The notes under the pieces were generated by a model. The model was given only the letters and a program-made list of their open reading frames with translations, made no database searches and was not told the origin of the DNA. The translations under genes were made by a program, and so were the position numbers. Source: Pseudomonadota bacterium (GTDB lineage: Bacteria; Pseudomonadota; Gammaproteobacteria; Steroidobacterales; Steroidobacteraceae). Taken from it: a stretch of DNA of 64,000 nucleotides. Below are positions 823-31,852 of this stretch, piece by piece. The DNA lies in NCBI GenBank assembly GCA_021843755.1, contig JAKBWB010000030.1, positions 1 to 64,000 on the forward strand, read 5' to 3'. Within the stretch, counting starts at the first letter, position 1. Each line of letters begins with the position of its first letter.

Positions 823-842
823 GTCTGTTCTCGGGGAGCTCG

Positions 843-5005: not shown

Positions 5006-6522
5006 CTGCGCGACGGCTCGTCCCGCGCACCGGGCGCCGTTGCGGCCGCCAGTCTGATCAGCTCCGGCTCATCGGTCTTGCCCGCGGCGCGCTCGGCGAC
5101 GACCGCCCCTGCACGCATCACCAGGATTCGATCGGCTTCGGCGAGCAGCACTTTCAGCTCCGAGTCGACCAGGATGACGGCCGCGCCGGTGTCGGCGAGT
5201 GCGTGGATCTCCTCGAAGATCTCGGCCTTCGCGCCGATGTCGATGCCGGCCGTCGGCTCATCCAACAGCAACAGGCGCGTCGGCCCGCACAACCAGCGCG
5301 CCAGGCTTACCTTCTGGGCGTTGCCTCCGGAGAGCTCTCCCACCGACATTTGCAGATCGTGGGCCTTGATCGCCAGACGCCGCACGGCATCCGCGGCCGC
5401 GGCGCGCTCCTGGCGTGCCCGTGGAAACAGTCCCCACCGCGAGAAGCGCCGCAGATGCACCAGGGTCATGTTCTGCCACAGAGGCAGCGCGGGCAGCAGG
5501 GCTTGCGCGGCGCGATCCTCCGGCACGAGCGCGACGCCCGCGCGGACCGCGCCGGCCGGGGTACGCGGCACGCGCCGGCCGAGGACACGTACTTCGCCGC
5601 GCGCGTCCGGGTCCGCGCCGAAAATGGCGTGCAGCAGCTCGCTGCGGCCGGAGCCGAGAAAGCCGGCGATCCCGAGCACCTCGCCGGCGCGCACCGTAAA
5701 CGAGCAGGGCGCAAGACGGCCCGGGGAGCGTAATGCCTCGATCTGCACCACGGTGTCGGCTCGGGCGGAGCGAATCGGGCGGGCGGCCCGCTGAATCGCG
5801 CGCCCGGCGATCGCCGTGGCGAGCGCCGCTTCGTCGGTCTGCGCGGTCACGGCGCGCAGCACCACAGCGCCGTCGCGCAGCACGGTCAGCTCGTCGGTCA
5901 ACGCGAGGGCCTCGTCGAGAAAGTGGGTCACCAGCAACACGGTGCGGCCCTCGTCCGCGAGCCGGCGGATGACGGCGTGCACGATGCGCCGCTCTGCCCC
6001 GGCCAGCGATGCAGTCGGCTCGTCCATCACGATCAGGCGCGCGTCGGCCGCGAGGGCCTGGAGAATACCCACCATCTGGCGCTCGCCGATCGCAAGCGCC
6101 GAGACAGGCTGGTCGGGCTGCAGTCGATAGTCGATCGCATCCATCAACAGCCCGAGTCGCCGGCGCGGCGCGGCACCGCGGCGCAGCAGGGCGCGCTGCC
6201 CCAAAAAAACATTCTCCAGCACCGACAGTGCCGGCACCAGCGGAATCTGCTGGTGAAGCGTCGCGATCCCGGCGGTCCGGGCCTGCGCGGGTCGCTGCCA
6301 GTGCACCGGCTCGCCGTGCCAGAGAATCCTGCCGGAGGTAGCCTGCGCCGCCGCGCACAGGATGCGGATGAGCGTCGATTTGCCGGCGCCATTGGCACCG
6401 AGCAATCCATGCACGGTACCGGGCCGGACGGCGAGATCGACGCCGCGCAGGCCCACGGTCCCGCCCGGATACACCTTCGCGAGTCGCTCCAGCGCGAGCA
6501 GCGGCGGCGAGGTTTCGCGCAT
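4993..6522 (-). CDS. Ribose-type sugar ABC transporter, double ATPase (RbsA/XylG-like)
   Basis: A 509-aa protein with two fused ABC domains. The first has Walker A GANGAGKST, a degenerate signature (LAIGERQ) and Walker B LIVMDEPTASL. The second has a degenerate Walker A (GFLGSGRSE), a good signature LSGGNAQKVSLARWL and LLLLDEPTAGID. This split of intact and degenerate motifs is typical of RbsA/MglA/XylG ATPases. It energises uptake of a monosaccharide or sugar acid. The start at 6522 is chosen because a GGTGAGGG ribosome-binding site precedes it and the fold begins soon after; an ATG at 6537 would add five residues. It lies 8 bp after the binding-protein gene. Confidence 0.92.
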   Translation of the reverse strand: MRETSPPLLALERLAKVYPGGTVGLRGVDLAVRPGTVHGLLGANGAGKSTLIRILCAAAQATSGRILWHGEPVHWQRPAQARTAGIATLHQQIPLVPALSVLENVFLGQRALLRRGAAPRRRLGLLMDAIDYRLQPDQPVSALAIGERQMVGILQALAADARLIVMDEPTASLAGAERRIVHAVIRRLADEGRTVLLVTHFLDEALALTDELTVLRDGAVVLRAVTAQTDEAALATAIAGRAIQRAARPIRSARADTVVQIEALRSPGRLAPCSFTVRAGEVLGIAGFLGSGRSELLHAIFGADPDARGEVRVLGRRVPRTPAGAVRAGVALVPEDRAAQALLPALPLWQNMTLVHLRRFSRWGLFPRARQERAAAADAVRRLAIKAHDLQMSVGELSGGNAQKVSLARWLCGPTRLLLLDEPTAGIDIGAKAEIFEEIHALADTGAAVILVDSELKVLLAEADRILVMRAGAVVAERAAGKTDEPELIRLAAATAPGARDEPSRRCAQ

Positions 6523-6530
6523 TGCGACCC

Positions 6531-7511
6531 TCACCATTCGCCGCGGCACTCGCCCACGTTGGCGCGGGTGATGCCCGGAGTCCTGTAGGTAATGAACGCG
6601 GCGTGCAGAGGCTTGCGCCCCGTCACCTCGCCGTACAGTGCATCGAAGGCGAGCCGGCCGAGCTCGAGCGGCTTGTAGCACACGGTCCCGTCGATGCGGC
6701 CGGCCTCGAGCGAGAGAATCGCCAGACGCGAGCCGCCGATCCCGATCAGTTTGGCCGTGGATCCCGCCGAGCTGACTGCGCGGGCGCAGCCGACCGCCAT
6801 GTTGTCGGCCTCGTTGAAGAACAGATCGACGTTCGGGTGTGCCTCGAGGATATTCTGACAGACGATGTCGGCTTCCTGGGTGCGCCAATCGGCCGGCTGG
6901 CTGGCGACGATACGGTAGCGGACATGCGCGGCGGCGAGCCCTTGCTCGAAGCCCTGCTCACGCTGCAGCACCTCCGGGAAGCCCGGCGCACCCTGAATGA
7001 TCGCTATGCGGGCGAGTCGCCCCGAGGGCAGCAGCGTGGCCGCGAGCCGCCCGGCCTCGCGGCCCGCCGCCGTCTCGTCCTGGGTGACGAGCGCGACCAG
7101 CTTCGGATACACCTCACGCAGCGGCCGGGTGCGCGGGTCGCCCACTTCGGAGCCGACCGCAACCACCGGTATGCCGGCGCGCGCGGCGTCGTTCACCCAA
7201 CTCTGCGCGATGACGGAATCGAGTGGCATCAGCACGATGCCGTTGACGTGCTCGGCGATGAGGTCCTGCAGGTCGTTGGCCTGCCTCTGCACGCGGTTCT
7301 GAGCATCGAGCACGATCGCCTGGACACCGGCGCGCGCCGCCGCGCGGCGAAATCCGCGCGCGATGGCGGCGGCGAACGGATAGCTCAAGCCGGCGCTGGC
7401 GAGCGCCAAACGCAAGGGGGCCGCGCTGGCGGGCAGGCTCGACAGCACGGCCAGAGCGGCGGCGACGGCCGTGGCCCGCAGGCGCGACCCGGCTCGCCGC
7501 CCGAGGCTCAC
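6531..7511 (-). CDS. Periplasmic sugar-binding protein of the ABC importer
   Basis: A 326-aa type I periplasmic binding protein (RbsB/LacI fold). A Sec signal peptide covers about residues 1-30 (Arg-rich start, hydrophobic core, cleavage near ASA-APL). The mature protein has the family pattern: a first strand [28 protein letters not shown], and [14 protein letters not shown] near the hinge. It captures the ligand for the permease and double ATPase encoded immediately downstream. It overlaps the MaoC-type gene by 4 bases. Ribose-type binding proteins take monosaccharides, polyols or sugar acids; the ligand here is unknown, though context suggests a branched or unusual sugar acid. Confidence 0.9.
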
Positions 7512-7960
7512 GCCAGCGCCTCGCGCCGCTCGACCAGATACAGGTGCTCACACGCCAGAACGGTCTGCCCGTTCTGGTTGGCGATCTGCACGGCCTCCAC
7601 CACGATTCCGTGCGTCTTGCGCTTGGGGTGATCACGGCGCTCGCTGATGCGCGCGGTCACTGTCAGCGTATCGCCGATGTACACCGGCCTGATGAATCGG
7701 ACGCGATCATAGCCGTAGGACATGGCTCTGGGATTGATGGCATCGGCTGTCATGCCGATGCCCATGGCCAGCACGAGCGTGCCGTGGGCGATTCGCTGTT
7801 TGAACGGCTGCTGCGCGCACCATTGGGCGTCCATATGATGCGGGAAGAAATCGCCGGTCTGGCCGGCGTGCGTCACGATGTCCGCTTCGGTGAGCGTGCG
7901 GCCGAACGTGCGCCGTTCGCTGCCGACCGCGTAGTCTTCGAAATACTGCTCGGCAATCAC
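7508..7960 (-). CDS. MaoC-like hot-dog dehydratase (enoyl-CoA hydratase type)
   Basis: A 150-aa single hot-dog domain protein. The region [12 protein letters not shown] (about residues 36-47) matches the MaoC hydratase catalytic Asp/His motif. [18 protein letters not shown] and the later [18 protein letters not shown] are typical of this family. It would hydrate or dehydrate a CoA thioester. The start is a GTG at 7960 that overlaps the CoA-transferase stop by 4 bases (GTGA); the open frame upstream is non-coding shadow. Pairing with a CoA-transferase suggests that an organic acid is activated and then hydrated or dehydrated. That is unexpected beside a ribose-type importer and glycosidase. 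Confidence 0.85.
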
Positions 7961-9165
7961 GCGCGCTCCTCCTCGGTGTCGAGCTGGAATCGGTGCGCGA
8001 TCTCGTCCGTGTCGCGGCCGAGCGTCGGGGCACCGCGGGGCGAGGTCAGCACGGCCCCGTCGATCCGGATGGGACAGCGCGTGGTGCGCAGTGTGCCGTG
8101 ATCGGCGTCGTGGATGGTCTGGGTCAGCCGCAGCGCGGCAAATCCGTTGTGCTCGAGCATTTGCGGCCAGGTGTAGACCTCGGCGCACCAGATGTCGGCG
8201 GGCTCGAGTATCGCCAGCCAGTGCTCGCTCTCCCGCGTGGCCAGATGCGCGGCCAGGATGGACTTGATGCGGGCCCGCTCGGTAAACCAGCCGGACGGAT
8301 CGGTGTAGGCGCGCAGCGCCTCGCAGCCGATGAGCTCGCCGAGGCGATCGATCGGCGCCATCGCCACGGCGAGGTAGCCGTCGGCGGTCTGATAGATGCC
8401 GTACGGCGCGCCGATATAGACACTGGCGTTGTTAACCGCATCACGCGGGGGCTGTTGGCCGTCCCCGTTCAGGAACGCGGTGAACTGCTCGAACTGCATG
8501 TCGATCGCCGACTCGAACAGACTGACCTCGACCCGCCCACCGAGGCCGGTACGTGCGCGCCGCACGAGCAGGGCGAGCACGCCCTGGCACAGATGCGCGC
8601 CGGACATCAGGTCGGCGATCGAGACGCCCATCGGCACCGGGCCCTGGGTGGCGTCCCCGGAAAGCCATGCGAGCCCGGACATGGCTTGTACGAGCAGGTC
8701 CTGTCCGGGCTTGGTACGCCAGGGACCCTCGGAGCCGTAACCGGTGATCGCGGCGTAGATGATGCGCGGGTTGAGGTCCGCAACCGTGGCGTAGTCCAGG
8801 CCGAGCCGCTCCATCACTCCCGGTCGGAAGTTGTGCACCATGACATCCGCGCGCCCGATCAGCGCCTTGGCCCGCTGCAAGTCCAGCGGATTTTTCAGGT
8901 CCGCCGCGAAGCTCTGCTTGTTGCGGTTGATGGTATGAAAGAGCGCGCTGTCCCCGCCGAACGACTGATCGGCAAGATACAGGCGGCGGGACAGATCCCC
9001 CCCCTGTGGACGCTCCACCTTGATGACCTCGGCGCCGAGATCGGCCAGCCGCAGGCAACAGGAGGGCCCGGCCAGAAACTGGCTGAAATCCAGCACCAGC
9101 ATCCCCTCCAACGGCCGCTCAGCGGTGGTCGTGGGCGCGCCGCGGTCCGCGTGCGCTGTCTTCAA
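7957..9165 (-). CDS. CaiB/BaiF (class III) CoA-transferase
   Basis: A 402-aa class III CoA-transferase. Family features include [16 protein letters not shown] at the N-terminus, [43 protein letters not shown] and Asp185 in SIADLMSG, the position of the catalytic aspartate that forms the acyl anhydride. It moves CoA between carboxylic acids without ATP. The start is probably the TTG at 9165: a GAGGAG ribosome-binding site sits 5 bases upstream and the protein then begins just before the conserved fold. Another TTG at 9258 would add 31 residues unlike the family. First gene of the leftward operon, divergent from the gene at 9258. Confidence 0.88.
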
Positions 9166-9200
9166 CCGGTCTCCTCGCGTAGTTTGCAGATAAATGCTAT

Positions 9201-9214
9201 GTTCGTTACCGAAT
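9201..9214. promoter_or_regulatory. Palindrome in the divergent promoter, candidate IclR operator
   Basis: The sequence GTTCGTTACCGAAT is a near-perfect inverted repeat (GTTCG, 4-base spacer, CGAAT). It sits in the middle of the 92-bp gap (9166-9257) between the divergent CoA-transferase and binding-protein-like genes. Operators of IclR-family regulators such as PcaU and PobR have GTTCG/CGAAC half-sites. The IclR gene at 3066-3905 is in the leftward operon, so it is the likely ligand. The function is inferred. Confidence 0.5.
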
Positions 9215-9257
9215 GAAGTCAACTGGACCTGCGGTGTCCGGGTGAGGGGGATGGGCA

Positions 9258-10394
9258 ATGCCGGATGACCGACCGATCGTCTTGCGCGGGATGACCTGGG
9301 ATCATCCCCGGGGCTACGAGCCGCTCGCGGCCTGCTCGGCGGCGTGGTTTGCCCGCAGCGGGGTGCGCATCACGTGGGAACGGCGCTCATTGCAGGATTT
9401 CGAGTCCTTTCCGGTCAGCGAGCTTGCGGCCCGCTATGACCTCATCGTGATCGATCATCCGCACGTCGGGCAGGTCACGCGCGCCGGATGTCTCGCGCCA
9501 CTCGGCGATGCCGCCGACCGTGAGCGGCTGGCCGGCGGCGCGGTCGGCGCCTCTGTACAGAGCTATTTCTGGGCGCAGCGGCTCTGGGCTCTCCCGATCG
9601 ACGCCGCGGCACAGGTTCAGGCTTGGCGTCCCGACCGGCTGTCCGCTCCTCTGGCGGATTGGGTATCGGTCCTGGCCCTCGCCGCCGAAGGCTCGGTGCT
9701 CTGTCCATTGCGGCCGCCGCACAACCTCATGGCTCTGTTCACCTTGTGTGGATTGGCCGGATGTCCAGGTCGAGTGCAGGCCGGCGACCTGCTGGAGCCG
9801 CGCACCGGGCAGGAGGCGTACGCGCACTTGAGCGAGCTTTTTGCCCGGCTCGATCCGGCCTGTCTGGCAATGGATCCCATCGCCGTCCTGGAGCGCATGG
9901 CCGCAGCGGACTCGCCAGCCGCCTGCGCACCCCTGATCTACGGGTATGTGAGCTACTCCCGATCCGGCACGCACGGCGCACCGATCGCATTCGGCGATCC
10001 GGCCCCGCTGGCGCGCGGCGGGCCGCGCTCCGGATCGGTTCTGGGCGGCACGGGCATCGCCGTCTCGGCCCATTCGCCCGAGCGCGAAGCGGCGATGGCA
10101 TTTGCACGCTGGGTGGCGGATGCAGAAGCGCAAAACGGACCGTACCTCGCCGCCGGCGGCCAACCCGCGCACCGCGCCGCGTGGGAAGACCCGCTCGCCA
10201 ACCGTGATTCGCTCGACTTCTTCCGCAACACGCGGGCAACACTCGAGGGCGCGTGGGTCCGCCCGCGCCATGCCGGATACATGACATTCCAGGTTGCGGC
10301 CGCGCAGCGCCTCAACGAGGCGTTGGCGACGCGCGAGCCGGCTGCCGCGCTCATCGCGGCGATCAACCGTCTGCATCGCGAGGTATCATCATGA
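9258..10394 (+). CDS. Second solute-binding-protein-like protein without a signal peptide
   Basis: A 378-aa protein that looks like a family 1 solute-binding protein: LRGMTWDHPRGYEPL at the start, DLIVIDHPHVGQV, a WALPIDAAAQVQAWRPD ligand-lobe segment, and VLGGTGIAVSAHSPEREAAMAFARWV, a conserved C-lobe motif of sugar-binding proteins. No hydrophobic leader, Tat motif or lipobox precedes it. The ATG at 9258 has a strong AGGGGG ribosome-binding site 7 bases upstream, so the leaderless start looks real. It is the first gene of the rightward operon and overlaps the GH127 gene by 4 bases (ATGA). The pair at 1910-3100 and 9258-10394 flanks the whole CoA/transport operon. Its role is unknown. Confidence 0.7.
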   Translation: MPDDRPIVLRGMTWDHPRGYEPLAACSAAWFARSGVRITWERRSLQDFESFPVSELAARYDLIVIDHPHVGQVTRAGCLAPLGDAADRERLAGGAVGASVQSYFWAQRLWALPIDAAAQVQAWRPDRLSAPLADWVSVLALAAEGSVLCPLRPPHNLMALFTLCGLAGCPGRVQAGDLLEPRTGQEAYAHLSELFARLDPACLAMDPIAVLERMAAADSPAACAPLIYGYVSYSRSGTHGAPIAFGDPAPLARGGPRSGSVLGGTGIAVSAHSPEREAAMAFARWVADAEAQNGPYLAAGGQPAHRAAWEDPLANRDSLDFFRNTRATLEGAWVRPRHAGYMTFQVAAAQRLNEALATREPAAALIAAINRLHREVSS

Positions 10395-12214
10395 GTTCAA
10401 CCACCACCCGCCGGACCTTCCTCAAATCAGCAACGGCGGCCGGCGCCGGCCTCGCCGCGCGGCGCACCCTGTGGCCGCGCCGCACCAGGGCCGCGACTCC
10501 CAACACCACGGCCGTCGAGCAGCTGCGCGAATTCGACTATGCGGACGTGGCGCTGACCGGCGGTCCACTCAAGACCCAGTACGACTTCATCCACGCGCAT
10601 TACCTGGCGCTGGATAACGATCGGCTGCTGCAGGTGTACCGGCAGCACGCCGGACTGCACGCACCGGGCGTCGACATGGGCGGTTGGTACGGCAAAGGAG
10701 GCTTCATACCCGGTCATGCGTTCGGTCAGTACGTTTCCGGCATCGCGCGCTTCGGACGCTGCACCGGTGACGATGCGTGCCGGCACAAAGTGCACGAGCT
10801 GATACACGGCTTTGCCGAGGCGCTCGACGCAAATCCGGTGCCCTATGCCGGCGAAGGCGCATGGCAGGTGTGGCCGGCCTACGTGCTCGACAAGCACATG
10901 ATCGGCTTGATCGACGCGTATTACCTGAGCGGCGTGCGCTCCGCTCGCCAGTTGATTCCGCGGGTGATCCGCGGAGCGCTGCCGTTCATCTCGCCGGTCA
11001 GCCGCAATCGCATCGGCGTGAAAAACCCGCCCTATGACGAAACCTATATCGTCTCGGAGAACCTGTTCACTGCGGCGCATCTGACCGGCGAGCGGCGCAT
11101 CCGCGACCTAGCCGTGAAGTATCTTCTCGACGGACCGTACTTCGACCCGCTGGCGAGCGGCGAGAACGTGCTGGCGGGACAGCAGGCATACAGCCACGTC
11201 ATGGCGTTCAGCTCCGCAGCCATGGCCTACATCCAGCTCGGCGAACCGCGCTACCGGGACGCCGTCATCAATGGCTGGAGGTTTCTCGAGGAACAGAGCT
11301 ACGCTACCGGCGGCTGGGGACCGAACGAGCTGCTGCTCACCCCGGGAACCGGCGCGCTCGCCTCGAGCCTGACCACGACGGCAAATCATTACGAGACGCC
11401 GTGCGGCACTTTCGCGACGATGAAGGCCGCACGTTACCTCATGCGCTTCACGGGCGATGCGCGCTACGGCGACGGGCTCGAGCGGATCATGTGGAACGGG
11501 CTGATGACGGTGAAGCCGCCGGACTCCAACGGCAATTCGCCGTATTACTCGAGCTATCACCCGGACGGGAAGAAGGTCTTCTATCCGGAAAAGTGGCCAT
11601 GCTGCTCCGGCACCCTGGCGCAGGGCGTGGCGGACTACGTGCGAAACGCCTATTTCCACGCGCCCGGCGCCCTCTATGTCAATCTGTTCACGCCCTCACG
11701 GGTGCGCTGGCGCAGCGGCGGCCGGGCCATCACGCTTACACAGCACACCGACTATCCAGCCGGCGAGACGGTGGAACTGCGCATCGAAACCGCCGCGCCG
11801 GCGGATTTCGCGCTCAGAATCCGCATGCCGGGCTGGCTCGAGGCCGATCCGCAGATCCAGGTCAACGGCCGGCGCCAGAGCCTGGCGGCCGATCCGGGCA
11901 CGTTCGCCGAAATCAGGCGCACGTGGCGCGACGGCGACCGGGTGCAGCTGCGCCTGCCGCAGTCATTTCGCACCCAGGCGATCGACCGGTCGCATCCCGA
12001 TACGGTGGCGCTGCTGCGCGGACCGCTCGTATACAGCGCACTGAACTTCGCCGGGCCCGGCGCGCCCGTACCGCGCTTGCGGCCGTCGGCACTGCACGCG
12101 GTGAGCGGCGCACGCCAAACCTACCGGCAGATGGATGACGGACAGCAGATTCTGTTCATACCGTTCTATGCCGTACAGAACGAATCCTACAATGTCTACT
12201 TCGAGCGGACCTGA
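10391..12214 (+). CDS. Tat-exported GH127-type glycosidase (DUF1680)
   Basis: A 607-aa glycosidase of the GH127 type (beta-L-arabinofuranosidase and relatives). A Tat signal (TTRRTFLKSATAAGAGLAA) indicates folded export to the periplasm. The (alpha/alpha)6 barrel follows, with GGWGPNE (Glu313, the likely acid/base position), YETPCGTF (Glu335, Cys338) and WPCCSG (Cys404, Cys405), then a C-terminal beta-sandwich. In the characterised enzyme HypBA1 a Glu and three Cys bind zinc and one Cys is the nucleophile. Here one residue is inserted between the Glu and first Cys (E-T-P-C rather than E-x-C). Another GH127 enzyme releases aceric acid, a branched sugar acid of rhamnogalacturonan II, which is notable beside an apionate-type kinase/decarboxylase pair. 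Confidence 0.82.
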   Translation: MSSTTTRRTFLKSATAAGAGLAARRTLWPRRTRAATPNTTAVEQLREFDYADVALTGGPLKTQYDFIHAHYLALDNDRLLQVYRQHAGLHAPGVDMGGWYGKGGFIPGHAFGQYVSGIARFGRCTGDDACRHKVHELIHGFAEALDANPVPYAGEGAWQVWPAYVLDKHMIGLIDAYYLSGVRSARQLIPRVIRGALPFISPVSRNRIGVKNPPYDETYIVSENLFTAAHLTGERRIRDLAVKYLLDGPYFDPLASGENVLAGQQAYSHVMAFSSAAMAYIQLGEPRYRDAVINGWRFLEEQSYATGGWGPNELLLTPGTGALASSLTTTANHYETPCGTFATMKAARYLMRFTGDARYGDGLERIMWNGLMTVKPPDSNGNSPYYSSYHPDGKKVFYPEKWPCCSGTLAQGVADYVRNAYFHAPGALYVNLFTPSRVRWRSGGRAITLTQHTDYPAGETVELRIETAAPADFALRIRMPGWLEADPQIQVNGRRQSLAADPGTFAEIRRTWRDGDRVQLRLPQSFRTQAIDRSHPDTVALLRGPLVYSALNFAGPGAPVPRLRPSALHAVSGARQTYRQMDDGQQILFIPFYAVQNESYNVYFERT

Positions 12215-13478
12215 GCAACCGCGCGTTCTCGCGCGCTATTGGATCGAGACCGCGCGACCGCTCGCGGAGGCGGCGGCGGTCATGGCCGGGGAGCAGTCGA
12301 CCGGCACGTTCGTGCGCGTGGCCGGGGAGACCGACGAGTTGCGCGCGCGTTTCGGCGCGCGGATCGAGTCACTGACCGAGACCGGAGAGTCGCCGGCGCC
12401 GTCCCTGCCCGGCGCCTGGGCGCCGGCGGCAGGCCGGGCACGCTGGCGAACCGCGGAGGTGACGCTGTCCTGGCCGCTGCACAACTTCGGTCCCTCGCTG
12501 CCGAACCTGCTCGCCACCATCGCCGGCAATCTGTGGGAACTGAAGCCGTTCTCGGGGATGCGACTGCTCGACGTCACGCTACCGCCGCAATTCCTGTCGG
12601 CCTACCCCGGTCCGCAATTCGGTGCGGCGGGCACGCGCGACATGATCGGCGTGCGCGGCCGGCCGCTCATCGGCACGATCATCAAGCCGAGTATCGGACT
12701 GTCTCCGGCGGACACCGCGCAGCGCGTGGCCGAACTCGCCGCGGCCGGCATCGATTTCATCAAGGACGACGAGCTGCAGGCCGACGGCCCGCTCTGCCCC
12801 TTCGAGGAGCGATTCAGCGCGGTCATGCGCGTGTTGCGCCGGCACGGCGATCGCACCGGCCAGCGGGTACTCTATGCCGCGAACATCACCGGCGAGATCG
12901 ACCAGATGCTGCGCCGGCACGAGCACGTGGTGGCCGAGGGCGGCAACTGCGTGATGGTGAGCTTGAACAGTATCGGGCTGCCGGCGCTGACGGCGCTGCG
13001 CGCGCGCTGCCAGGTGCCGATTCACGGCCACCGCAACGGCTGGGGTCTGCTCGGCCGCTCGAGCGCGATCGGCATGAGCTTCGTCGCGTGGCAGAAGCTG
13101 TGGCGGCTCGCCGGCATCGACCACGTGCACGTCAACGGGCTCGACAACAAGTTCTGCGAGAGCAACGCGTCGGTGATCGCCTCGGCGCGCGAGTGTCTCA
13201 CGCCGATGTTCGCGCCCCCGGCGCGCGGCTGCGAGATCATGCCCGTGTTTTCCTCGGGCCAAACGGCGCTGCAGGTTCCGGACACGTGGCGGGCGCTCGG
13301 CTCGGTCGAGCTGATTCACGCCTGCGGCGGCGGCATCATCGGACACCCGGGCGGCGCGGCCGCCGGCGTGCGCAGCCTGCGCCAGGCGTGGCTGGCGGCG
13401 GTCGCCGGCATTGCGCTCGAAGAGTACGCCCGCGAGCATCGTGAGCTGGCGGAGGCGCTGGCGGCGTTCCGGCGCTGA
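12192..13478 (+). CDS. RuBisCO-like protein, probable acid-sugar phosphate decarboxylase (OiaX-like)
   Basis: A 428-aa RuBisCO large-subunit homologue. It keeps the carbamylated-Lys metal motif KDDE (Lys191 to Glu194), the active-site Lys165 in GTIIKPSIGL, the His-x-His-Arg region HGHRNGW (278-284), the PVFSSGQ phosphate-loop segment and CGGGIIGHPGG. The second Lys of the KPK motif is Ser167 and no loop-6 GKLEG motif is seen, so it is not a CO2-fixing RuBisCO. With the adjacent DUF1537 kinase it matches the known pair in which OiaK phosphorylates 3-oxo-isoapionate and OiaX decarboxylates the 4-phosphate to erythrulose 1-phosphate. That assignment is by family and context. It overlaps the GH127 gene by 23 bp. 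Confidence 0.82.
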   Translation: MSTSSGPEQPRVLARYWIETARPLAEAAAVMAGEQSTGTFVRVAGETDELRARFGARIESLTETGESPAPSLPGAWAPAAGRARWRTAEVTLSWPLHNFGPSLPNLLATIAGNLWELKPFSGMRLLDVTLPPQFLSAYPGPQFGAAGTRDMIGVRGRPLIGTIIKPSIGLSPADTAQRVAELAAAGIDFIKDDELQADGPLCPFEERFSAVMRVLRRHGDRTGQRVLYAANITGEIDQMLRRHEHVVAEGGNCVMVSLNSIGLPALTALRARCQVPIHGHRNGWGLLGRSSAIGMSFVAWQKLWRLAGIDHVHVNGLDNKFCESNASVIASARECLTPMFAPPARGCEIMPVFSSGQTALQVPDTWRALGSVELIHACGGGIIGHPGGAAAGVRSLRQAWLAAVAGIALEEYAREHRELAEALAAFRR

Positions 13479-13553
13479 CGGCCGCGCGGGGGTCGCTCAT
13501 GAGATGCCTTGTGGCCTCGAATACCGGGACCGGTGCCGCGCACGGCATGAATC

Positions 13554-14864
13554 ATGGCTAGTCCGCTCTACGCTTACTACGGCGATGACTTCACGGGCTC
13601 GACCGATGTGCTCGAGGCGCTGGCCCGCGCCGGCGTGCGCAGCGTGCTGTTCGTCGGGCCGCCGAGCAGTTCGGAGCTCGAGCGCTTCGCCGGATGTCAG
13701 GCGTTCGGAATCGCCGGCGACAGCCGCAGCCGCACCCGCGAGTGGATGAGCGAGCATCTGCCGGCGGTGTTCCGCGACCTTGGGACGCTCGGCGCGCCGG
13801 TCGTGCACTACAAGACCTGTTCGACGTTCGACAGTTCGCCTGCGATCGGCTCGATCGGCCGCGCGCTCGAGATCGGCCGCAGTGTCTTGCCGGGGCCGTT
13901 CGTGCCACTGGTGGTGGCCGCGCCCCATCTCGGTCGCTACCTCGTGTTCGGGAATCTGTTCGCCGCGGCCGGCGGCGTGGTGCACCGGATCGACCGCCAT
14001 CCGACCATGCGGTCCCATCCGGTGACACCGATGTACGAGGCGGATCTGCGCCGGCATCTGGCGGCGCAGACCGCGCTGCGCATCGGGTCGGTGGAGCTGC
14101 CGGCCCTGGCGCGGGACAGGGCCGGCGAAGCGCTCGCCGCGTGCCTTGCCGCCGGCGATCAGGCGGTGCTCTTCGACGGGGTGAGCGAGGCGGATCTGGC
14201 GCAGACAGGCCGGCTGCTGTGGCGGCAGGCTCAGGCCCACAGGCTCTTCTGCGCCGGCAGCTCCGGACTCACCTACGCGCTGCTGGCAGCCTGGCGGCGG
14301 GCCGGCGTGATTCCCGCCGATGCGGCGCCGCCGGCCTCGATCCGGCCGGCCGATACCCTGTTGGTCATGAGCGGCAGCTGCTCACCGGTCACCGCACGGC
14401 AGATCCAGTTTGCGCTGCGCAACGGGTATCACGGCATCGCGCTCGAGCCGGCGGCGCATCCCGGCGGCGGCGCGCAGACCGACGACCGCGTGGTGCGTGC
14501 GGCGGTGAACAGCCTGCGCCGCGGGCGCAGCACCGTCCTCTACAGCGCAGTGGGCCCGCTTCCCGCCGGCGCACGCCCATCGGGCGAGGGTCTCGGCCGG
14601 CGGATGGGCGAGCTGCTGGCGCGCATCCTGGCGGGCGTGCCGCAGCACCGGCGCGTGCTGCTCGCGGGGGGCGACACTTCGAGCCACGCGGTCGCGCAGC
14701 TTGGCCTGTCGGCGCTCACTTGGGCCGGACACCTCGAACCTGGCGCGCCCTTGTGCCGCGCCCATGCCGACGGACACTCCCGTCACGACGGGCTGGAGTT
14801 GGTTCTCAAGGGCGGACAAGTGGGGAGCGAGGAATTCTTCGAGCGCGTCAGGCTGGGCAGGTAG
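13554..14864 (+). CDS. DUF1537-family four-carbon acid sugar kinase (OiaK-like)
   Basis: A 436-aa two-domain kinase. The N-terminal substrate domain has the hallmark YYGDDFTGSTDVLEAL, HYKTCSTFDSSP and HRIDRHPTMRSHPVTPM. The C-terminal nucleotide domain has MSGSCSPVTARQ, a VLLAGGDTSSHA motif and the conserved C-terminal LKGGQVG. The family phosphorylates 3-keto- or 2-keto-aldonates and related C4-C5 acids. Immediate linkage to a RuBisCO-like gene is the signature of the 3-oxo-isoapionate pathway, so a 3-oxo-acid is the likely substrate. It is last in the rightward operon, 75 bp after the RuBisCO-like gene, with a weak ribosome-binding site at the ATG used. Confidence 0.85.
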   Translation: MASPLYAYYGDDFTGSTDVLEALARAGVRSVLFVGPPSSSELERFAGCQAFGIAGDSRSRTREWMSEHLPAVFRDLGTLGAPVVHYKTCSTFDSSPAIGSIGRALEIGRSVLPGPFVPLVVAAPHLGRYLVFGNLFAAAGGVVHRIDRHPTMRSHPVTPMYEADLRRHLAAQTALRIGSVELPALARDRAGEALAACLAAGDQAVLFDGVSEADLAQTGRLLWRQAQAHRLFCAGSSGLTYALLAAWRRAGVIPADAAPPASIRPADTLLVMSGSCSPVTARQIQFALRNGYHGIALEPAAHPGGGAQTDDRVVRAAVNSLRRGRSTVLYSAVGPLPAGARPSGEGLGRRMGELLARILAGVPQHRRVLLAGGDTSSHAVAQLGLSALTWAGHLEPGAPLCRAHADGHSRHDGLELVLKGGQVGSEEFFERVRLGR

Positions 14865-15061
14865 GTCTCCTGTGTCATAGCAAAGAACATCGCACTCGCG
14901 GCCCTTGTGGCCGGCCCGCGGCCAGCACCGATCTGAGGTTCCTTGCATTGGTCGACTCACGGCGATCCGAGCCCCGGGGAACCGTTGGTGCCGGAAATAT
15001 CGTTGGCCCGCGTGCCGCGGGAGTACCGCAGAATTTCCCGTTCACACCAGGCTCGCATTCG

Positions 15062-17140
15062 CTACTCCAGGGCCGGGGTTCCCGAAAGCCACCCGCCCGT
15101 GAAACCAGCGCGCTGCAGGCCCCTGCGGATGACGCCGTTGCGGCGCATCACGCTCCATACCAGACCGCTGCGGTAGTTCTCCAACATCATCAGGATCGGA
15201 CCCTGATCGATACCCAGATACCGGTTGTCAAACCAGCCGACACCGGGCACGACGCTGCCGGATGCCGGGGTAACATCGGTGTACTGGAAGCTCGGGTTCA
15301 GAGCATCGTGAAAGCCGTACTGGCCGAGGGCGTAGTTGCCGTAATCCGCTTGCATCGCCTCTACGGTCGAAATCACGATACCGGGCGCAAAGACAATCGA
15401 GCTCAGCGCTGCCGTGGGTGCGACCGTGCCATCGTCATAGGCGCCCCGCAGGCCTGCCCCGCGCATCGAGTAAGCCTCGAAACTGCGTACCTGCCCACCG
15501 GGATCCGTGAAACTGAATGCGCCCGGACCGTCACAGGCGGTAAGACCCCACAGATCGGCGCCATACCCGGTCCATCCGTGCGGATTGGCCTCGGCATAAG
15601 CCTGCTGTGATTCCGTAGCGCGGCGGCTGTTGATGAAGTAGTCGATGCCTTTGCTCCGCATGTAGGCATCCTGGATGCCGCGAAAGTCGATCCAGGCCTC
15701 GGAATACTGCGAGCCAAAGAGCGGCCCGAAACTGAGCTGTTCGCGGCCGTAATAGGTACCCCAGAATTGGGGATAGGTTGCGGTCCACCCGGCCCAGGCG
15801 CTCGCCGGCAATGCGTACGTTGGTGATCCGAGCGCCTCGATGTAGAGAATCATCGCTTCGTTGTAGCCCTGCCAATTGTAGGACGAGAATCCTGATTCCG
15901 GTGTCCAGTCGAGATTGATCAGCGGATAGTTGCTCTGCGCCATCCATTGCCAGTTGACGCGCCGAAACAGTTCGTCAGCCACGGCCTGGATCTGGTTATC
16001 GGTGGTACTGCCGTCATCAAAATAGCCTGCATCAAACAGAACGCCGGCCATCAGCAGCGCATTGTCGACCGACGAGAGACCCGTGGTGGTGCCATAGCGT
16101 GCGCCGGTATTCAGGTTGAGGAAATGATAGAAGAGCCCCTGATAGCCGCTGTAACCACTGGCGCCGGTCCCCTGCGGCGCGTCGTATAGAAAACTCAACG
16201 TGGTCAGCACGCGTTGTGCGGCTTGCGCACGGGTGACCCAGCCGTTCTGTACGCCGATCGGATATGCGCTGAGCGCGAAGCCGGTCGCGGCAATGCTGGC
16301 ATAGGGCGAAGGTCCGCCGGCCGTGGAATAGTGATCGGGCGCCAAGCCGTTGCTGGAATTCGTGGTGTCCCAGAAATAGTTGAATGTGTCCTGCTCGATC
16401 CGCACGAACGAGGCCGGCAAGGCCGGCCGCACCTGAACCGTCAGCGGCGTATTTGCGGTCTGGCCGTCACTGTATCCCTGGAGTTCGAGCGTGTAGGTGT
16501 TCAGCGTCACCGTGGTTGTCGTGCTGAGCGTCACACGCTGCGTTCCCGAAGCCGCGACCGAGCCGGCGTTGGTGCTCACCTGCATGCCGGCGGGCGCATT
16601 GGTCAAGCTCAGCGTGACTGGCGCGGATGCCGCTGGATTGACGTTCACGGTAAATGTGGTCGAACCACCCGCCGGCTGTGACAGCACGGCGGGCGTGGCA
16701 CTGATTTGCAGTGCACCCCCCGCAGCGGCCTGCACCTGCACGGTAAGATCGACCGTACCGGTCAGCCCTCTCTGGCTGCCACTGAGCGCCACCGTATAGG
16801 TGCCCGGCGCCGTCGAGGCGGCGGCGGTCAGAATTTCCGTCTGCGTCCCAGATCCCGCACCAGAGTCGGCTGCGGTCGCGACTTGCAGTCCCGCGGGCGC
16901 GTTGATCAGGACCACCGTTACCGGACTGTAGGCGGCGGGAGCCGTGCCCAGCGTGAATGTCGCCGACGCTCCGGAGGTGACACTTACGCTGGCAGGCTCA
17001 GCGATGAGCGTAAGATTGAGCACACTCGGCCCCACGCTCGGCCCGGACGTTGCGCTGCCACCGCAACCGGCCAGCGTGACTCCCAGCAACAGGATCACCA
17101 CGCTGCCCGCAACGCGCATCGATGTGGCGAGGAGGCGCAT
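15062..17140 (-). CDS. Lipoprotein beta-glucanase of the GH144/glycoamylase-like type
   Basis: About 692 aa. A lipoprotein signal (hydrophobic core ending LAGC) anchors it to a membrane. Two Ig-like repeats of about 90 residues follow, both with the pattern T-F-T-[LV]...APAG[LM]QV[AS]T. The catalytic domain (glycoamylase-like, PF10091) begins near FVRIEQDTFNYFWD and contains SIAATGFALSAYPIGV, GLFYHFLN, GLSSVDNALLMAGVL, LDWTPESGFSSYNWQGYNEAM and FGPLFGSQYSEAWIDFRGIQD. Characterised members hydrolyse beta-1,2-glucans. The gene lies about 260 bp downstream of a maltose-type ABC operon, consistent with supplying it with oligosaccharides. The start is uncertain: ATGs at 17152, 17140 and 17119 are all possible and none has a clear ribosome-binding site. 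Confidence 0.8.
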   Translation of the reverse strand: MRLLATSMRVAGSVVILLLGVTLAGCGGSATSGPSVGPSVLNLTLIAEPASVSVTSGASATFTLGTAPAAYSPVTVVLINAPAGLQVATAADSGAGSGTQTEILTAAASTAPGTYTVALSGSQRGLTGTVDLTVQVQAAAGGALQISATPAVLSQPAGGSTTFTVNVNPAASAPVTLSLTNAPAGMQVSTNAGSVAASGTQRVTLSTTTTVTLNTYTLELQGYSDGQTANTPLTVQVRPALPASFVRIEQDTFNYFWDTTNSSNGLAPDHYSTAGGPSPYASIAATGFALSAYPIGVQNGWVTRAQAAQRVLTTLSFLYDAPQGTGASGYSGYQGLFYHFLNLNTGARYGTTTGLSSVDNALLMAGVLFDAGYFDDGSTTDNQIQAVADELFRRVNWQWMAQSNYPLINLDWTPESGFSSYNWQGYNEAMILYIEALGSPTYALPASAWAGWTATYPQFWGTYYGREQLSFGPLFGSQYSEAWIDFRGIQDAYMRSKGIDYFINSRRATESQQAYAEANPHGWTGYGADLWGLTACDGPGAFSFTDPGGQVRSFEAYSMRGAGLRGAYDDGTVAPTAALSSIVFAPGIVISTVEAMQADYGNYALGQYGFHDALNPSFQYTDVTPASGSVVPGVGWFDNRYLGIDQGPILMMLENYRSGLVWSVMRRNGVIRRGLQRAGFTGGWLSGTPALE

Positions 17141-17401
17141 CGCTATTGGCATCGGGCGCACCACGGGAACTGCGGCACAGCATGAGGCCGCCCGGCCGCA
17201 CCTGCGCCTGAACAAACGCATTCACCACGAGGCCGGTCACTCGCCGCGCGACCCGGCAGCACGATGTCCATGAGTTCGCGAGTGCCGGACGCGTTCCCGA
17301 ATGCATGGGCGACTGTCCACGCCGCAGCCGACGCCACCGCTGGCCGGCGACCGGGGCGCGTTACCGAAGAGCCATCACCGATATTGCTGCGCGGCTGCGC
17401 A

Positions 17402-18430
17402 TCAGCCTTGCAGACGTCTTCCGGTTGCACGGTCAAACGCATACAAGTCTTCTCTACGGAACCACAAACGCAGCTCGTTATCCCGCCGGAGCTCCGGATT
17501 CGGTGCAACCCGTGCGATGACGCGCGATCCGTTCCGACTTATCTCCACCTGCCATTCTCCCCCGAAGGATTCGATCCGCTCGAGCCTCCCGGCAATGAAC
17601 GCATCGGCGCTCGAGCTGGGTTGCAGCAGCAATCGCTCCGGACGAATACCGTAATCAATGCAATGCGCATCCAACCCGGAATTCTCCAACCAATCGCCGT
17701 CGAGGAAATTCATCGGGGGCCAGCCCACGAAACCGGCCACGAAGCGATTACTGGGTTCCTTGTAGATGCCATCCGGCGTGTCGATCTGCTGAATCTGCCC
17801 GTCCGCCAGCACGACCACGCGCTGACCGAGCGACAGGGCTTCCGATTGATCGTGCGTCACGTAAACCATCGTCGTACCGAGCGCCGTGTGCAGCGCCGAC
17901 AGCTCACGGCGCATCTCGGCCCGCAACGGAATATCGAGGCTCGAGAGCGGCTCATCGAGCAGGAACACACCCGGTTCGCGCAGCATGGCGCGCCCGAGCG
18001 CGGTCCGCTGCCGCTGCCCCCCCGACAGTTCCCGCGGGTAGCGTCCCAGCAACGCCTCGAGACCCAGCCGGACGGCGGTCCGCCGCACGCGGGCATCGAC
18101 GATCGCTCTGGCGACGCGCCGCACCCGTAGTCCGAATGCGAGATTCTGGTACACCGTCATGTGCGGGTAGAGCGCGTGATTCTGAAACACCATGGCGACG
18201 TTCCGTTGCTGCGGCGGCAGGTCATTGACCCGTTGCCCCCCGATCCGTATGTCGCCACTGGTGATCTTGTCGAGCCCCGCAACGCACCGCAACAGGGTCG
18301 ATTTTCCGCACCCTGAAGGGCCCACCACCGAGATCAGTTCGCCGTCGTTCACCGTGCAATCGATATCCTGCAAAACGACCTGACGGTTCGCAAGGAGTTT
18401 CGACACCCTCTGCAGTTCGAGGCGCGCCAT
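17402..18430 (-). CDS. Sugar ABC transporter ATPase (MalK/UgpC family)
   Basis: A 342-aa ATPase with Walker A GPSGCGKST, Q-loop FQNHALYPHMTV, signature LSGGQRQRTALGRA, Walker B FLLDEPLSSLD and the H-loop THDQSEAL. A C-terminal TOBE/regulatory domain of about 110 residues follows, slightly short for MalK. It powers uptake of oligosaccharides or polyols through the two permeases encoded just upstream. The start codon is 1 bp from the stop of the previous permease gene. MalK-type ATPases are sometimes shared between importers; having its own gene here suggests a dedicated system. Confidence 0.92.
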   Translation of the reverse strand: MARLELQRVSKLLANRQVVLQDIDCTVNDGELISVVGPSGCGKSTLLRCVAGLDKITSGDIRIGGQRVNDLPPQQRNVAMVFQNHALYPHMTVYQNLAFGLRVRRVARAIVDARVRRTAVRLGLEALLGRYPRELSGGQRQRTALGRAMLREPGVFLLDEPLSSLDIPLRAEMRRELSALHTALGTTMVYVTHDQSEALSLGQRVVVLADGQIQQIDTPDGIYKEPSNRFVAGFVGWPPMNFLDGDWLENSGLDAHCIDYGIRPERLLLQPSSSADAFIAGRLERIESFGGEWQVEISRNGSRVIARVAPNPELRRDNELRLWFRREDLYAFDRATGRRLQG

Positions 18431-18431
18431 G

Positions 18432-19259
18432 TCAGTCCGTCAGGCTGCCGGCAGAAACAGCCCGAAGATAGTAGCGCTGCGACGCAAGGAAAACAAACAT
18501 CATGGGCAGGATCGCAACCGTCGCGCCGGCAGCCATCAACCCGATATTCTGATAATGCTCCCGATCGATCGACGCCAATGCGACCGGCAATGTCTGCATG
18601 TCCACCTTCTGCATCGCGATCATCGGCCACATGAAGTCGTTCCAGCTCACCACGAACGTCAGTACCGCAACCGCCGCAAGCATCGGCGCCATCAGCGGCA
18701 CCACCACCGAGAAGAATGTCCGCCACTCGCTCGCACCGTCGATCCGCGCGGCATCGAGAACGTCCGCCGGAATCCCGCGTGCATAGGCCTGAATGAGCAC
18801 TATGCTGACCGCATTGGCCGCCGCGGGCAGGATCAGCGCCGCATAGTGATTGATCAGGTGCACCGCACTGAACATCTCGAACAGGGGCAGAACCAGTGCC
18901 TGATTGGGAACCAGGACGGCGAACATCACGATCCATGACACCAGTCGGTGCGCGCGGAATTTGGCCTGGGCGAGCGCGTATCCGGCCAGGCCCGCAACCA
19001 ATACCGACAAGGGGGTGGTGGCCGCCGCGACGATCAGGGAATTGAGGAAATAGTAGCCGATCCTCTGCTGGTGGACGATGTTCACCATGTTCACGAGCGT
19101 CGGATGATCGGGCCACAGCGGCGGCGTTCCGGCAAATCGCTCCGGCGCCCGCATGAAGGCAATCGAGGTTACCCATAACAGCGGGAACAATGTGGCCAAC
19201 GCCATCACGATCAGCGCCGCGTAGGTCGACACCCGGACCAGCACGCCCTTCGCGCTCAC
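18432..19259 (-). CDS. Sugar ABC transporter permease (MalG/UgpE-like)
   Basis: Inner-membrane permease of 275 aa with about six transmembrane segments. The EAA motif is near DVLDAARIDGASEWRTFFSVVVPLMAP, a strong match to the MalG-side binding-protein-dependent permease consensus. It should pair with the permease encoded at 19261-20136. Translation starts at a GTG at 19259, 1 bp after the stop of the partner gene. It ends just before the ATPase gene, so the three genes form one tight operon segment. Confidence 0.92.
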   Translation of the reverse strand: MSAKGVLVRVSTYAALIVMALATLFPLLWVTSIAFMRAPERFAGTPPLWPDHPTLVNMVNIVHQQRIGYYFLNSLIVAAATTPLSVLVAGLAGYALAQAKFRAHRLVSWIVMFAVLVPNQALVLPLFEMFSAVHLINHYAALILPAAANAVSIVLIQAYARGIPADVLDAARIDGASEWRTFFSVVVPLMAPMLAAVAVLTFVVSWNDFMWPMIAMQKVDMQTLPVALASIDREHYQNIGLMAAGATVAILPMMFVFLASQRYYLRAVSAGSLTD

Positions 19260-19260
19260 G

Positions 19261-20136
19261 TCAATCCCCCCGCCATACCGCCCGCGTATGGCGCTGCAGC
19301 CATGCGAACAGCCACATGATAACCGTCAAAACCATCGCCAAGGCGCTCGCCACCCCCCAACGCCACCAGCGAAAGCCCCGATCGTACATCAGCAGCAGCA
19401 GGCTCATCGTACTGCCCATCGGCCCGCCCTGGGTCAGAACATAAGGCTCGGCGAACAACTGCCAATAGCCCGCTGCGTCCAGAAGCGCGAGCAGACCGAG
19501 CGTCGGAGCCAGCATAGGCACCGTAATGCGCAGCAACTGCTGCATCATCCCTGCGCCCTCGATGCGCGCGATATCATAAAGTTCGTCCGGAATCTCGCGG
19601 CGCGCCGCTGCGACGATGATCATTCCGTATCCGAATCCTTTCCAGACGACGACTACGGTGATCGCAAGCAACGCCAGGCTCGGCGTACCCAGCCAGTTTG
19701 GCGTGGGCAGATGGGCCGCGGCGAGCAATCTGTTTACAAGTCCGTAGCGCGTATTGAGCATGTAGCGCCAGCTGATCGCGACCGCCACAGTCGAGCACAC
19801 GACGGGTAGAAAGAAGGCTGTTCGAAACAGACCGCGCCACCGCGCCGAGATCGACTCGATCATGAGCGCACAGATCAGCGACAGCGCCAGGGTTGCCGGA
19901 ACACCGACGAGGACGACGGTCATCGTGGTCTCAACGCCCTGCCAGGCGGCACGGTCGTGGAGCAGGTGAATGAAGTTGGCGACTCCTATGAAATGCAGAT
20001 CAGCGCCATTGGCGAGCGAATAGATGTTGAAGTCCGTCATGCTGAGTCCGAGCACGCCGATGAGCGGAACAAAGACGAAGAGCACGATCAGCAATAGGGC
20101 CGGTAGGATGAAAAACAGCGCGGTCAGCGACTTCAT
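19261..20136 (-). CDS. Sugar ABC transporter permease (MalF/UgpA-like)
   Basis: Inner-membrane permease of 291 aa, about six transmembrane segments. The EAA-loop region reads IPDELYDIARIEGAGMMQQLLRITVPMLAP. A periplasmic loop after the first transmembrane segment (MTDFNIYSLANGADLHFIG) is typical of UgpA-type proteins. Its ATG overlaps the stop of the binding lipoprotein gene by 4 bases. It forms the heterodimeric channel with the MalG-like protein encoded downstream. Confidence 0.92.
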   Translation of the reverse strand: MKSLTALFFILPALLLIVLFVFVPLIGVLGLSMTDFNIYSLANGADLHFIGVANFIHLLHDRAAWQGVETTMTVVLVGVPATLALSLICALMIESISARWRGLFRTAFFLPVVCSTVAVAISWRYMLNTRYGLVNRLLAAAHLPTPNWLGTPSLALLAITVVVVWKGFGYGMIIVAAARREIPDELYDIARIEGAGMMQQLLRITVPMLAPTLGLLALLDAAGYWQLFAEPYVLTQGGPMGSTMSLLLLMYDRGFRWWRWGVASALAMVLTVIMWLFAWLQRHTRAVWRGD

Positions 20137-21428
20137 GGCTGTTTTCCCACGACTCGCCTGCGACCTTTCCCGGGTTCCCGACTCAGGAGCGCCCGACGCT
20201 CGGCCAGCCAGTAGTTGACCCGACGGTCAAGCTGATCAGTGGCGGCGCGGATCGATACGCCTCCGATCACGACCTGCTCGGCCATGCGGCGCATGCCGTG
20301 CATGATTTCACCCCACTCGGGAATCTTCGGAAACGGCTGAACTCGGCCGAGTTGTACACGGAAGGCGTTCAGTTTGCGGTCGGTCGCCAGCGGCGCGAAG
20401 GTCCAGGGTCCGCGTCGCGCCGGCAAGTCGCCGGTAAGTGCGAACAGGCGCACCTGCTGGCGGTTCTGCAGCATATAGCGGACGAACGCGCGCGCGAGCG
20501 GCTGACGGCGCGAGCGCCTGAAGATCACCAGGTCCGAGCCGTCGATCAGCGAGGTGCCCGCGCCGCGCGGTCCGGGCATCGGGGCCGTCATCCACAAGTG
20601 TTGGTCCTGTGGCTGCAGGAAGCGGCGGAACTCGCCGATATTCCACGGTCCCGAGACATAAAAGACGAAATCGCCGCGCGCCATCTGCCACCACAGGTTG
20701 ATCAGCTGGCGGTCGGTGATGCGCGGCGCGAGCCGTTGTGCGAATAAGTTCTTGTAGAACCGCAATGCGGCACGGAAGGACGGGCTGGCGAAATTTCCAT
20801 AGCGATCCCCGTCGCGAAGCACGGACGCGGGCTCCTGCAGCGCCAGGACCTCGAGGAATTCGTATTCATTGATCGGCGCAAGCAACGGATATTGACCCGG
20901 CTTGAGGATTCGGCGCACGGCTTGCAGCTGCTTCAGCCATCCGCTCCAGGTGCGCGCGGGCCGACGGTAGCCGGCACGATGCAGAACGGCCGGCAGGTAG
21001 AACAGCACCCGTGTGTCGACGTACCACGGCGTGCCGTAATAGCGGCCGTTGAAACGTGTGACATCGAGGGCCTCTTGGAAAAAATCCCCGGCAACCGGTC
21101 GTTGAGGAACGATCGCGTGCAACGTCACCAGGGTCGACAGATCGGTATCTCCGACCTGGGCGACATCCGGAGGATCGCCCGCTGCGACTGCGGAGAGAAG
21201 GCGTGCCTGGGCGGAGCTCCAGGCGAGATTTTCCACGCAAACATGCGTTCCCGGATGTTCTCGCTCGAAGCCTGGAACCATGCGTTGCAAGGCAGTGGCT
21301 TCGACACCGACCGCCCAGACGTTAAGACCACATGGCGAACGGGCGCAGCCTGCGCACGCAAGCGCTGCCGAGGCCAACGCAGGAGCCATTGCGTTTCGCA
21401 GCAGCTGCACTGTCCTCGGGAGTTTCAC
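20133..21428 (-). CDS. Sugar-binding lipoprotein of a maltose-type ABC importer
   Basis: A 431-aa family 1 solute-binding protein. Arg-containing signal, hydrophobic stretch and LACAGC lipobox near residues 22-28 indicate a lipoprotein. The mature part shows LNVWAVG, ENLAWSSAQARLLSAVAAGDPPDVAQVGD, GTPWYVDTRVLFY and the C-lobe FVFYVSGPWNIGEF, all standard for sugar-binding proteins. It delivers ligand to the permeases encoded next. The start is taken as GTG at 21428, giving an n-region MKLPRTVQLLRN; an internal ATG 13 codons later is possible. The region upstream holds a 17-bp palindrome. Confidence 0.88.
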   Translation of the reverse strand: MKLPRTVQLLRNAMAPALASAALACAGCARSPCGLNVWAVGVEATALQRMVPGFEREHPGTHVCVENLAWSSAQARLLSAVAAGDPPDVAQVGDTDLSTLVTLHAIVPQRPVAGDFFQEALDVTRFNGRYYGTPWYVDTRVLFYLPAVLHRAGYRRPARTWSGWLKQLQAVRRILKPGQYPLLAPINEYEFLEVLALQEPASVLRDGDRYGNFASPSFRAALRFYKNLFAQRLAPRITDRQLINLWWQMARGDFVFYVSGPWNIGEFRRFLQPQDQHLWMTAPMPGPRGAGTSLIDGSDLVIFRRSRRQPLARAFVRYMLQNRQQVRLFALTGDLPARRGPWTFAPLATDRKLNAFRVQLGRVQPFPKIPEWGEIMHGMRRMAEQVVIGGVSIRAATDQLDRRVNYWLAERRALLSREPGKGRRRVVGKQP

Positions 21429-22867: not shown

Positions 22868-22888
22868 CTTTGTCTCCTTCGGCGCTCG

Positions 22889-22902
22889 CGAAAGCGTTTA
22901 CG
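22889..22902. promoter_or_regulatory. LacI-type operator upstream of lacI
   Basis: CGAAAGCGTTTACG matches the general LacI/CcpA operator pattern TGNAANCGNTTNCA at the core (AAAGCGTTTAC). It lies 22-35 bp upstream of the lacI ATG, a good position for autoregulation. Function is inferred from position and motif. Confidence 0.55.
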
Positions 22903-26963: not shown

Positions 26964-26983
26964 AGGGGCCTTGCTTCCGATTC

Positions 26984-28498: not shown

Positions 28499-28559
28499 TG
28501 TACGCTCCATCGACCCCCGATCCGGCCGCCGGAGAGTGCTCCGGCGGCCCGACGGACGC

Positions 28560-31822: not shown

Positions 31823-31829
31823 GCCGCTG

Positions 31830-31843: not shown

Positions 31844-31852
31844 TTTTGGCGG

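Follow-up and report, generated by a model that had tools for sequence, protein, structure and literature searches.

A RuBisCO-like protein and a DUF1537 kinase from a Steroidobacteraceae bacterium are likely to act in L-aceric acid catabolism

What does a RuBisCO-like protein (RLP) do when its gene lies between those of a GH127-like glycosidase and a DUF1537-family sugar-acid kinase? The question was raised by a stretch of 64,000 nt from a bacterium of the Steroidobacteraceae (contig JAKBWB010000030.1, assembly GCA_021843755.1), termed here the window, to which all coordinates refer. An earlier note on this DNA had described the RLP and kinase pair at 12192-14864 and connected it with D-apiose catabolism through OiaX. 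Our analysis indicates instead that the two proteins probably catalyze two steps of the catabolism of L-aceric acid. The primary walls of plants contain a conserved pectin, rhamnogalacturonan II (RG-II), of which the rare sugar aceric acid forms part, and a literature search that did not cover most subscription journals found no description of a microbial catabolic route for this sugar. Since the trio of RLP, kinase and a racemase-fold protein recurs beside enzymes that release aceric acid, and the breakdown route is undescribed, the set most likely encodes that pathway.

Both genes of the pair were intact and conserved, and both products were recognized by Pfam. The ATG that starts the RLP gene overlaps the stop codon of the upstream GH127 gene (12212-12214), and the protein contained both domains of the RuBisCO-like superfamily (RuBisCO_large, 250 bits; RuBisCO_large_N, 43 bits). 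Alignment with the RuBisCO of the same genus, from which all equivalent residues were read, revealed that the RLP retains the counterparts of E60, N123, T173, K175, K201, D203, E204, H294, R295, H327 and K334. The KDDE motif (K191-D192-D193-E194) and K165, listed as retained in the earlier note, were seen in this alignment and were invariant among near relatives. The same was true of S167, which that note had correctly placed at the second Lys of the KPK motif (K177) and by which the RLP departs from the residue set of carboxylating RuBisCOs. The loop-6 Lys, in contrast, is not missing as had been claimed. K320 has the expected spacing (H313+7 = K320, matching H327+7 = K334 in RuBisCO), falls in the K334 alignment column and did not vary among the relatives checked, OiaX being one of them; loss of this Lys was thereby ruled out, and only the wording of the loop is altered, from GKLEGE to NKFCES.

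Searching NCBIfam returned OiaX as the best match of the RLP (equivalog model NF042437, 438.6 bits) and OiaK, the 3-oxo-isoapionate kinase, as the best match of the kinase over its full length (NF042436, 466 bits). As both scores lie under the cut-offs, which are 700 bits for either model, neither protein qualifies as an equivalog. The RLP shared ~42-44% identity with proteins named OiaX by NCBI. In the tree, the RLPs of window-type cassettes formed a clade with 100/99 support and OiaX formed a separate clade; forcing the two into one clade was rejected by the approximately unbiased (AU) test (p 0.0007). The placement with OiaX thus failed on the phylogeny that the earlier note had itself named as the check. 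The RLP resembles OiaX in adjoining an OiaK-type kinase and in keeping the carbamate-site residues and the K334 equivalent. However, the positions of E60, N123, K177 and H327 are occupied in OiaX by D, G, A and Q, whereas the window RLP keeps E60, N123 and H327. Genes for triose-phosphate isomerase and RpiB adjoin the RLP gene in the OiaX locus of R. etli, and neither was found beside the RLP in the window-type or ApnO-linked loci searched.

OiaX is a decarboxylase, and a second enzyme, the 3-oxo-isoapionate-4-phosphate transcarboxylase/hydrolase OiaT, is known from Xanthobacter autotrophicus (PMC6302742). Because the related Ancylobacter carries RLPs linked to ApnO and ApnL, with neither triose-phosphate isomerase nor RpiB, we infer that the ApnO-linked RLPs are OiaT. 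These putative OiaT-like proteins matched the window RLP at every catalytic residue checked, including a KPS motif, and are paired with the same type of kinase. They differ in their surroundings, adjoining ApnO and ApnL where the window RLP adjoins the GH127-like and racemase-fold proteins. Another RLP type of the Xanthobacteraceae (KPN, HVHG, motifs like those of PDB 3nwr; loci L138-L143, L153-L156 and L159) was also paired with a DUF1537 kinase, without ApnO or GH127.

The surroundings of 80 RLP loci from named genomes were compared by clustering the neighbor genes. RLPs closest to that of the window stood mostly beside GH127 and without ApnO, those farther from it beside ApnO. Part of the latter loci also held ApnL and a dehydrogenase of the Gfo/Idh/MocA type, which corresponds to the apiose pathway. 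ApnO was present in none of 30 window-type and Chloroflexota loci as against 22 of 24 apiose-type loci, whereas a gene of the Asp/Glu/hydantoin racemase family occurred in 25 of the former and 3 of the latter. An MFS transporter was likewise a core cassette gene (26 of the 30). The window's own genome (96.8% complete) gave no match to ApnO, nor to ApnL, the model of which also matched in no control genome. The cassettes were also examined for an aldolase or a classical sugar isomerase shared by all of them, and none was seen. The set of RLP, kinase, GH127-like, MFS and racemase-fold genes recurred in Gammaproteobacteria, Sphingomonadales and Acidobacteriota, with Hephaestia, Sphingomonas, Terriglobus and Bryocella as cultured carriers. 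An OiaX-like RLP of this kind (340-453 bits) is encoded in many other genomes of the window's genus. Within the limits of the contigs, the genus loci that were fetched hold Gfo/Idh/MocA, solute-binding protein, IclR, ribose-type ABC transporter, MaoC and CaiB genes on one strand and the solute-binding protein, GH127, RLP and kinase genes, in window order, on the other. As this order is kept in the genus and recurs in other phyla, the pairing of RLP and kinase is far beyond chance. A single clade for all cassette RLPs was rejected (AU p 2e-5), which ruled out a single origin; the linkage therefore recurred or was lost repeatedly and is no single frozen accident. Of the genomes of loci L103 and L112 (G253, G252), G253 carries ApnO on another contig than the cassette, and in G252 it was not found, so that the apiose and cassette functions appear to be separable within a genome.

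The link to aceric acid is provided by two Chloroflexota loci, in which a distant GH127 adjoins the same trio. Both GH127 proteins passed the aceric acid hydrolase model NF049879 (996.5 and 1019.5 bits; curated cut-off 950), and one of the loci has a LacZ-type beta-galactosidase upstream. This led to the prediction that such genes lie near the trio elsewhere. NF049879 was searched in 400 Chloroflexota and 289 Verrucomicrobiota genomes, independently of the RLP. Ten Verrucomicrobiota genomes gave matches of 874-960 bits and nine of them contained the RLP, with the complete trio within ~10 kb in seven, the RLP at the limit of the region read in one and ~20 kb off in one. The matches in nine of the ten genomes scored 874-916 bits, and those put in the tree formed one clade with the passing sequences. 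In Chloroflexota the RLP cassette is thus adjoined by true members of the hydrolase family, in Verrucomicrobiota by members near the cut-off. Of the 13 genomes with the high-scoring GH127 type, 11 contained the RLP, compared with none of the 27 whose GH127 scored lower (765 bits at most; Fisher p 3e-8, a descriptive value as the genomes are related and the 870/765-bit split was set after the score gap had been seen). GH127 in general was ruled out as the partner of the RLP, since the lower-scoring genes had no RLP nearby.

In several Verrucomicrobiota loci there is also a GH78 rhamnosidase akin to the one in window-type loci, together with a Fucose_iso_C isomerase, an FGGY kinase and a split transketolase. 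The isomerase, which sits with the kinase and transketolase, was absent from most other loci. These three genes resemble the transketolase route for apiose; if they form such a route, apiose would be handled there by genes other than the cassette. Aceric acid hydrolase type, trio, GH78 and this apparent apiose route occur together in loci L232, L233, L236, L238, L239 and L240.

Aceric acid is 3-C-carboxy-5-deoxy-L-xylose (PMC8218411). From the gene content and the chemistry of this sugar acid we infer a pathway for the window's lineage, in which substrate, order of steps, role of each enzyme and products would be as follows. An exported clan GH-P glycosidase would free aceric acid from side chain B of RG-II, and an MFS or ABC transporter would bring it into the cell. 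The racemase-fold protein would convert the aldose to the 2-ketose CH2OH-CO-C(OH)(COOH)-CHOH-CH3, the primary hydroxyl of which would be phosphorylated by the DUF1537 kinase. The RLP would then act on a 3-oxo acid phosphate that equals 3-oxo-isoapionate 4-phosphate plus one methyl group (CH(OH)CH3 for CH2OH), in the favored form by an OiaT-like transcarboxylation and hydrolysis yielding 3-phosphoglycerate and lactate. As the ketose phosphate would be methylated 3-oxo-isoapionate 4-phosphate, a single isomerization followed by an OiaK-like kinase and an RLP of the OiaX/OiaT kind would be enough, and ApnO would not be needed. Of the earlier proposal of a decarboxylase for a 3-oxo-acid phosphate, action on a phosphorylated 3-oxo acid supplied by the adjacent kinase remains likely, whereas the identity with OiaX does not stand.

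Apart from the kinase and the RLP, the racemase-fold protein was the one metabolic enzyme that the cassettes shared; it is proposed for the isomerization by exclusion and as a guess. Its sequence matched solved racemases weakly, and the fold search was decisive: the AlphaFold2 model (pLDDT 94.5) retrieved Asp and Glu racemases in Foldseek with TM ~0.77. The protein shares with the Asp/Glu/hydantoin racemase superfamily the fold and the first catalytic Cys (C77, invariant), but the second Cys is replaced by an invariant Gln (Q185, in LAQASMAR), so it is not a standard two-Cys racemase.

The glycosidase of the window was considered separately. It has a twin-arginine-like N-terminus, and the catalytic residues E313, E335, C338, C404 and C405 are conserved. 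The enzyme resembles BT1003, the aceric acid hydrolase of GH127 (PMC5698469), in the clan GH-P fold and the E/C/CC catalytic motif, and differs from it in tree position, score and motif, having ETPC where aceric acid hydrolase has ETC. The GH127 linkage, which the earlier note set apart from the apiose loci known to it, is confirmed by the position directly upstream in the RLP operon and points to aceric acid rather than apiose. In Terriglobus albidus the GH127-like gene (L067:8069-9979) is read in two frames, by frameshift or assembly error.

Several observations weigh against aceric acid as the substrate. The window enzyme scored 86.7 bits with NF049879, far below the cut-off, and formed its own long branch outside the aceric acid hydrolase clade; the assignment of the substrate in the window's lineage therefore rests on the shared cassette. 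Its predicted structure (mean pLDDT 80) was nearest to GH146 8qf8 (Z 36.7, rmsd 2.8, 540 aligned), and the comparison with BT1003 gave Z 33.7 (rmsd 3.3, 506 aligned); in this ranking GH146 BT0349 came first, followed by GH127, and the nearest GH146 enzymes are arabinofuranosidases. The protein could represent a novel kind of aceric acid hydrolase, or else a different enzyme of side chain B. Moreover, only one of the ten Verrucomicrobiota matches, that of G802, passes 950 bits, and G802 lacks the RLP, as does Chloroflexota G421 with a hydrolase above the cut-off; both may have another aceric acid route or none. The post hoc score split also counts on this side. GH29, present in the window, was reported to be active on fucose and not on 2-O-methyl-fucose (PMC12282258), the form found in side chain B. 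The proposed isomerase is a further weak point: we know of no racemase-fold member that acts as an aldose-ketose isomerase.

These doubts bear on alternative readings of the cassette. In the window's lineage it might handle a different branched sugar acid that a GH146-like glycosidase would release, as the long branch and the GH146-like structure of the window enzyme would suggest. This is unlikely, as the RLP, kinase and racemase-fold protein belong to the same three families as those beside true aceric acid hydrolases, and to our knowledge no other plant sugar acid yields the right 3-oxo acid by one isomerization. Apiose itself is improbable, whether by OiaK with OiaX or by OiaT: OiaX and OiaK are the best NCBIfam matches and the nearest RLPs outside the window clade sit with ApnO, partly with ApnL, but the distribution of ApnO separates the two kinds of loci, the window's genome yielded no ApnO (nor ApnL, with the model that matched in no control genome), the RLP falls outside the OiaX clade and several Verrucomicrobiota loci hold an apparent apiose route of their own. 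Tree, score, residues and the failure to find ApnO together led us to reject the OiaX/apiose assignment. An oxygenase role for the RLP in a D-hamamelose-like pathway is highly improbable, although such an RLP oxygenase has been reported (Kim 2018, as cited in PMC10176493). The cassette tracks aceric acid hydrolase. Moreover, we know of nothing that connects the hamamelose pathway with GH127 or with a racemase-fold gene.

With aceric acid as the substrate, the reaction of the RLP has still to be chosen. Simple decarboxylation of the ketose 1-phosphate to 5-deoxypentulose 1-phosphate, from which an aldolase would form dihydroxyacetone phosphate and acetaldehyde, is a credible though rather unlikely course. 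It has the precedent of OiaX, a decarboxylase of the same superfamily (PMC6302742), and in the tree the RLPs of the Verrucomicrobiota cassettes are sister to OiaX. The aldolase that it requires is, however, not conserved in the cassettes. An OiaT-like step is favored because E60, N123 and H327, residues of carboxylation and hydration lost in OiaX, are all retained; the products assigned here to OiaX and OiaT are those reportedly established for them. The full scheme, in which a racemase-fold aldose-ketose isomerase and an RLP that moves CO2 within its substrate, with hydrolysis to 3-phosphoglycerate and lactate, were assembled repeatedly around different RLP lineages, is put forward tentatively and with more doubt than confidence.

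Among the further genes of the window (Table 1), the GH42, GH29, GH78, GDSL and rhamnose/fucose genes fit side chain B of RG-II, in which Rha, 2-O-methyl-Fuc, Ara, Gal, AceA, Api and O-acetyl groups are present (PMC8218411). The GDSL-to-FAH group, shared with window-type loci, looks like L-rhamnose/L-fucose uptake and oxidation, and the stretch of glycoside hydrolase genes (46891..63627) is partly shared with a Croceibacterium plasmid locus. CaiB and MaoC genes are kept opposite the GH127-RLP operon throughout the genus and have no obvious use in a sugar pathway. The MFS gene adjoins the kinase gene in relatives, as do the MFS and racemase-fold genes together in a 96%-identical congener; in the window the pair lies apart from the kinase because of an insert. 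This insert has a 12-bp overlap at its junction and a GC of 0.63 against 0.69/0.66 in the flanks, and carries a PF10091 glycoamylase, maltose-type ABC genes, LacI, GH39, a tryptophan halogenase and a TonB-type receptor.

Table 1. Positions of the annotated genes and of the insert within the window (SBP, solute-binding protein).
Feature	Position	Strand	Basis or remark
Gfo/Idh/MocA oxidoreductase (within 843-2204), SDR (within 82-1062)	82..2204	-	conserved at end of same operon as ABC/IclR genes
IclR regulator (3066-3905), second SBP (1910-3100)	part of 1910..7511	-	
Ribose-type ABC transporter: SBP (6531-7511), ATPase (within 4993-6888), permease (3902-5005)	1910..7511	-	
Divergent operon: CaiB-type CoA-transferase (7957-9258), MaoC-type hydratase (7508-8188)	7508..9258	-	conserved in genus
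Extracellular SBP, first gene of GH127-RLP-kinase operon	9258..10394	+	conserved in genus
Clan GH-P glycosidase (Pfam GH127)	10391..12214	+	directly upstream of RLP, one operon
RLP, 428 aa	12192..13478	+	Pfam, residue alignment
DUF1537-family (SBD_N/NBD_C) sugar-acid kinase, OiaK-like	13554..14864	+	Pfam SBD_N/NBD_C, 190/103 bits
Insert between kinase and MFS/racemase-fold pair, 18.9 kb	14890..33780	.	absent from 96%-identical congener
MFS transporter, sugar-acid symporter type	33805..35076	-	TIGR00893 (D-galactonate subfamily), 204 bits, below cut-off 395
Asp/Glu/hydantoin-racemase-fold protein (ASPRAC)	35077..35751	-	Pfam, conservation, AlphaFold2 and Foldseek
GDSL esterase, RhaT, amidohydrolase, SDR, FAH hydrolase	35849..40718	-	shared with window-type loci
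GH78-type rhamnosidase	46891-49662	-	
GH42	about 50013-51899	+	
GH42	about 52124-54088	+	
GH29	about 54312-55814	+	
GH43-like	56669-57832	-	
GH78-type rhamnosidase	60763-63627	+	

Enzymatic release of aceric acid is already known from BT1003, and the catabolic route is what would be new. If our reading is true, this would be the first route for aceric acid, with a new substrate and possibly a new reaction for the RuBisCO superfamily, and new chemistry would be predicted for the racemase fold. The cultured carriers of the set make the hypothesis testable now. It would also explain a family of RLP-kinase pairs for which RuBisCO large subunit and four-carbon acid sugar kinase are at present the only annotations.

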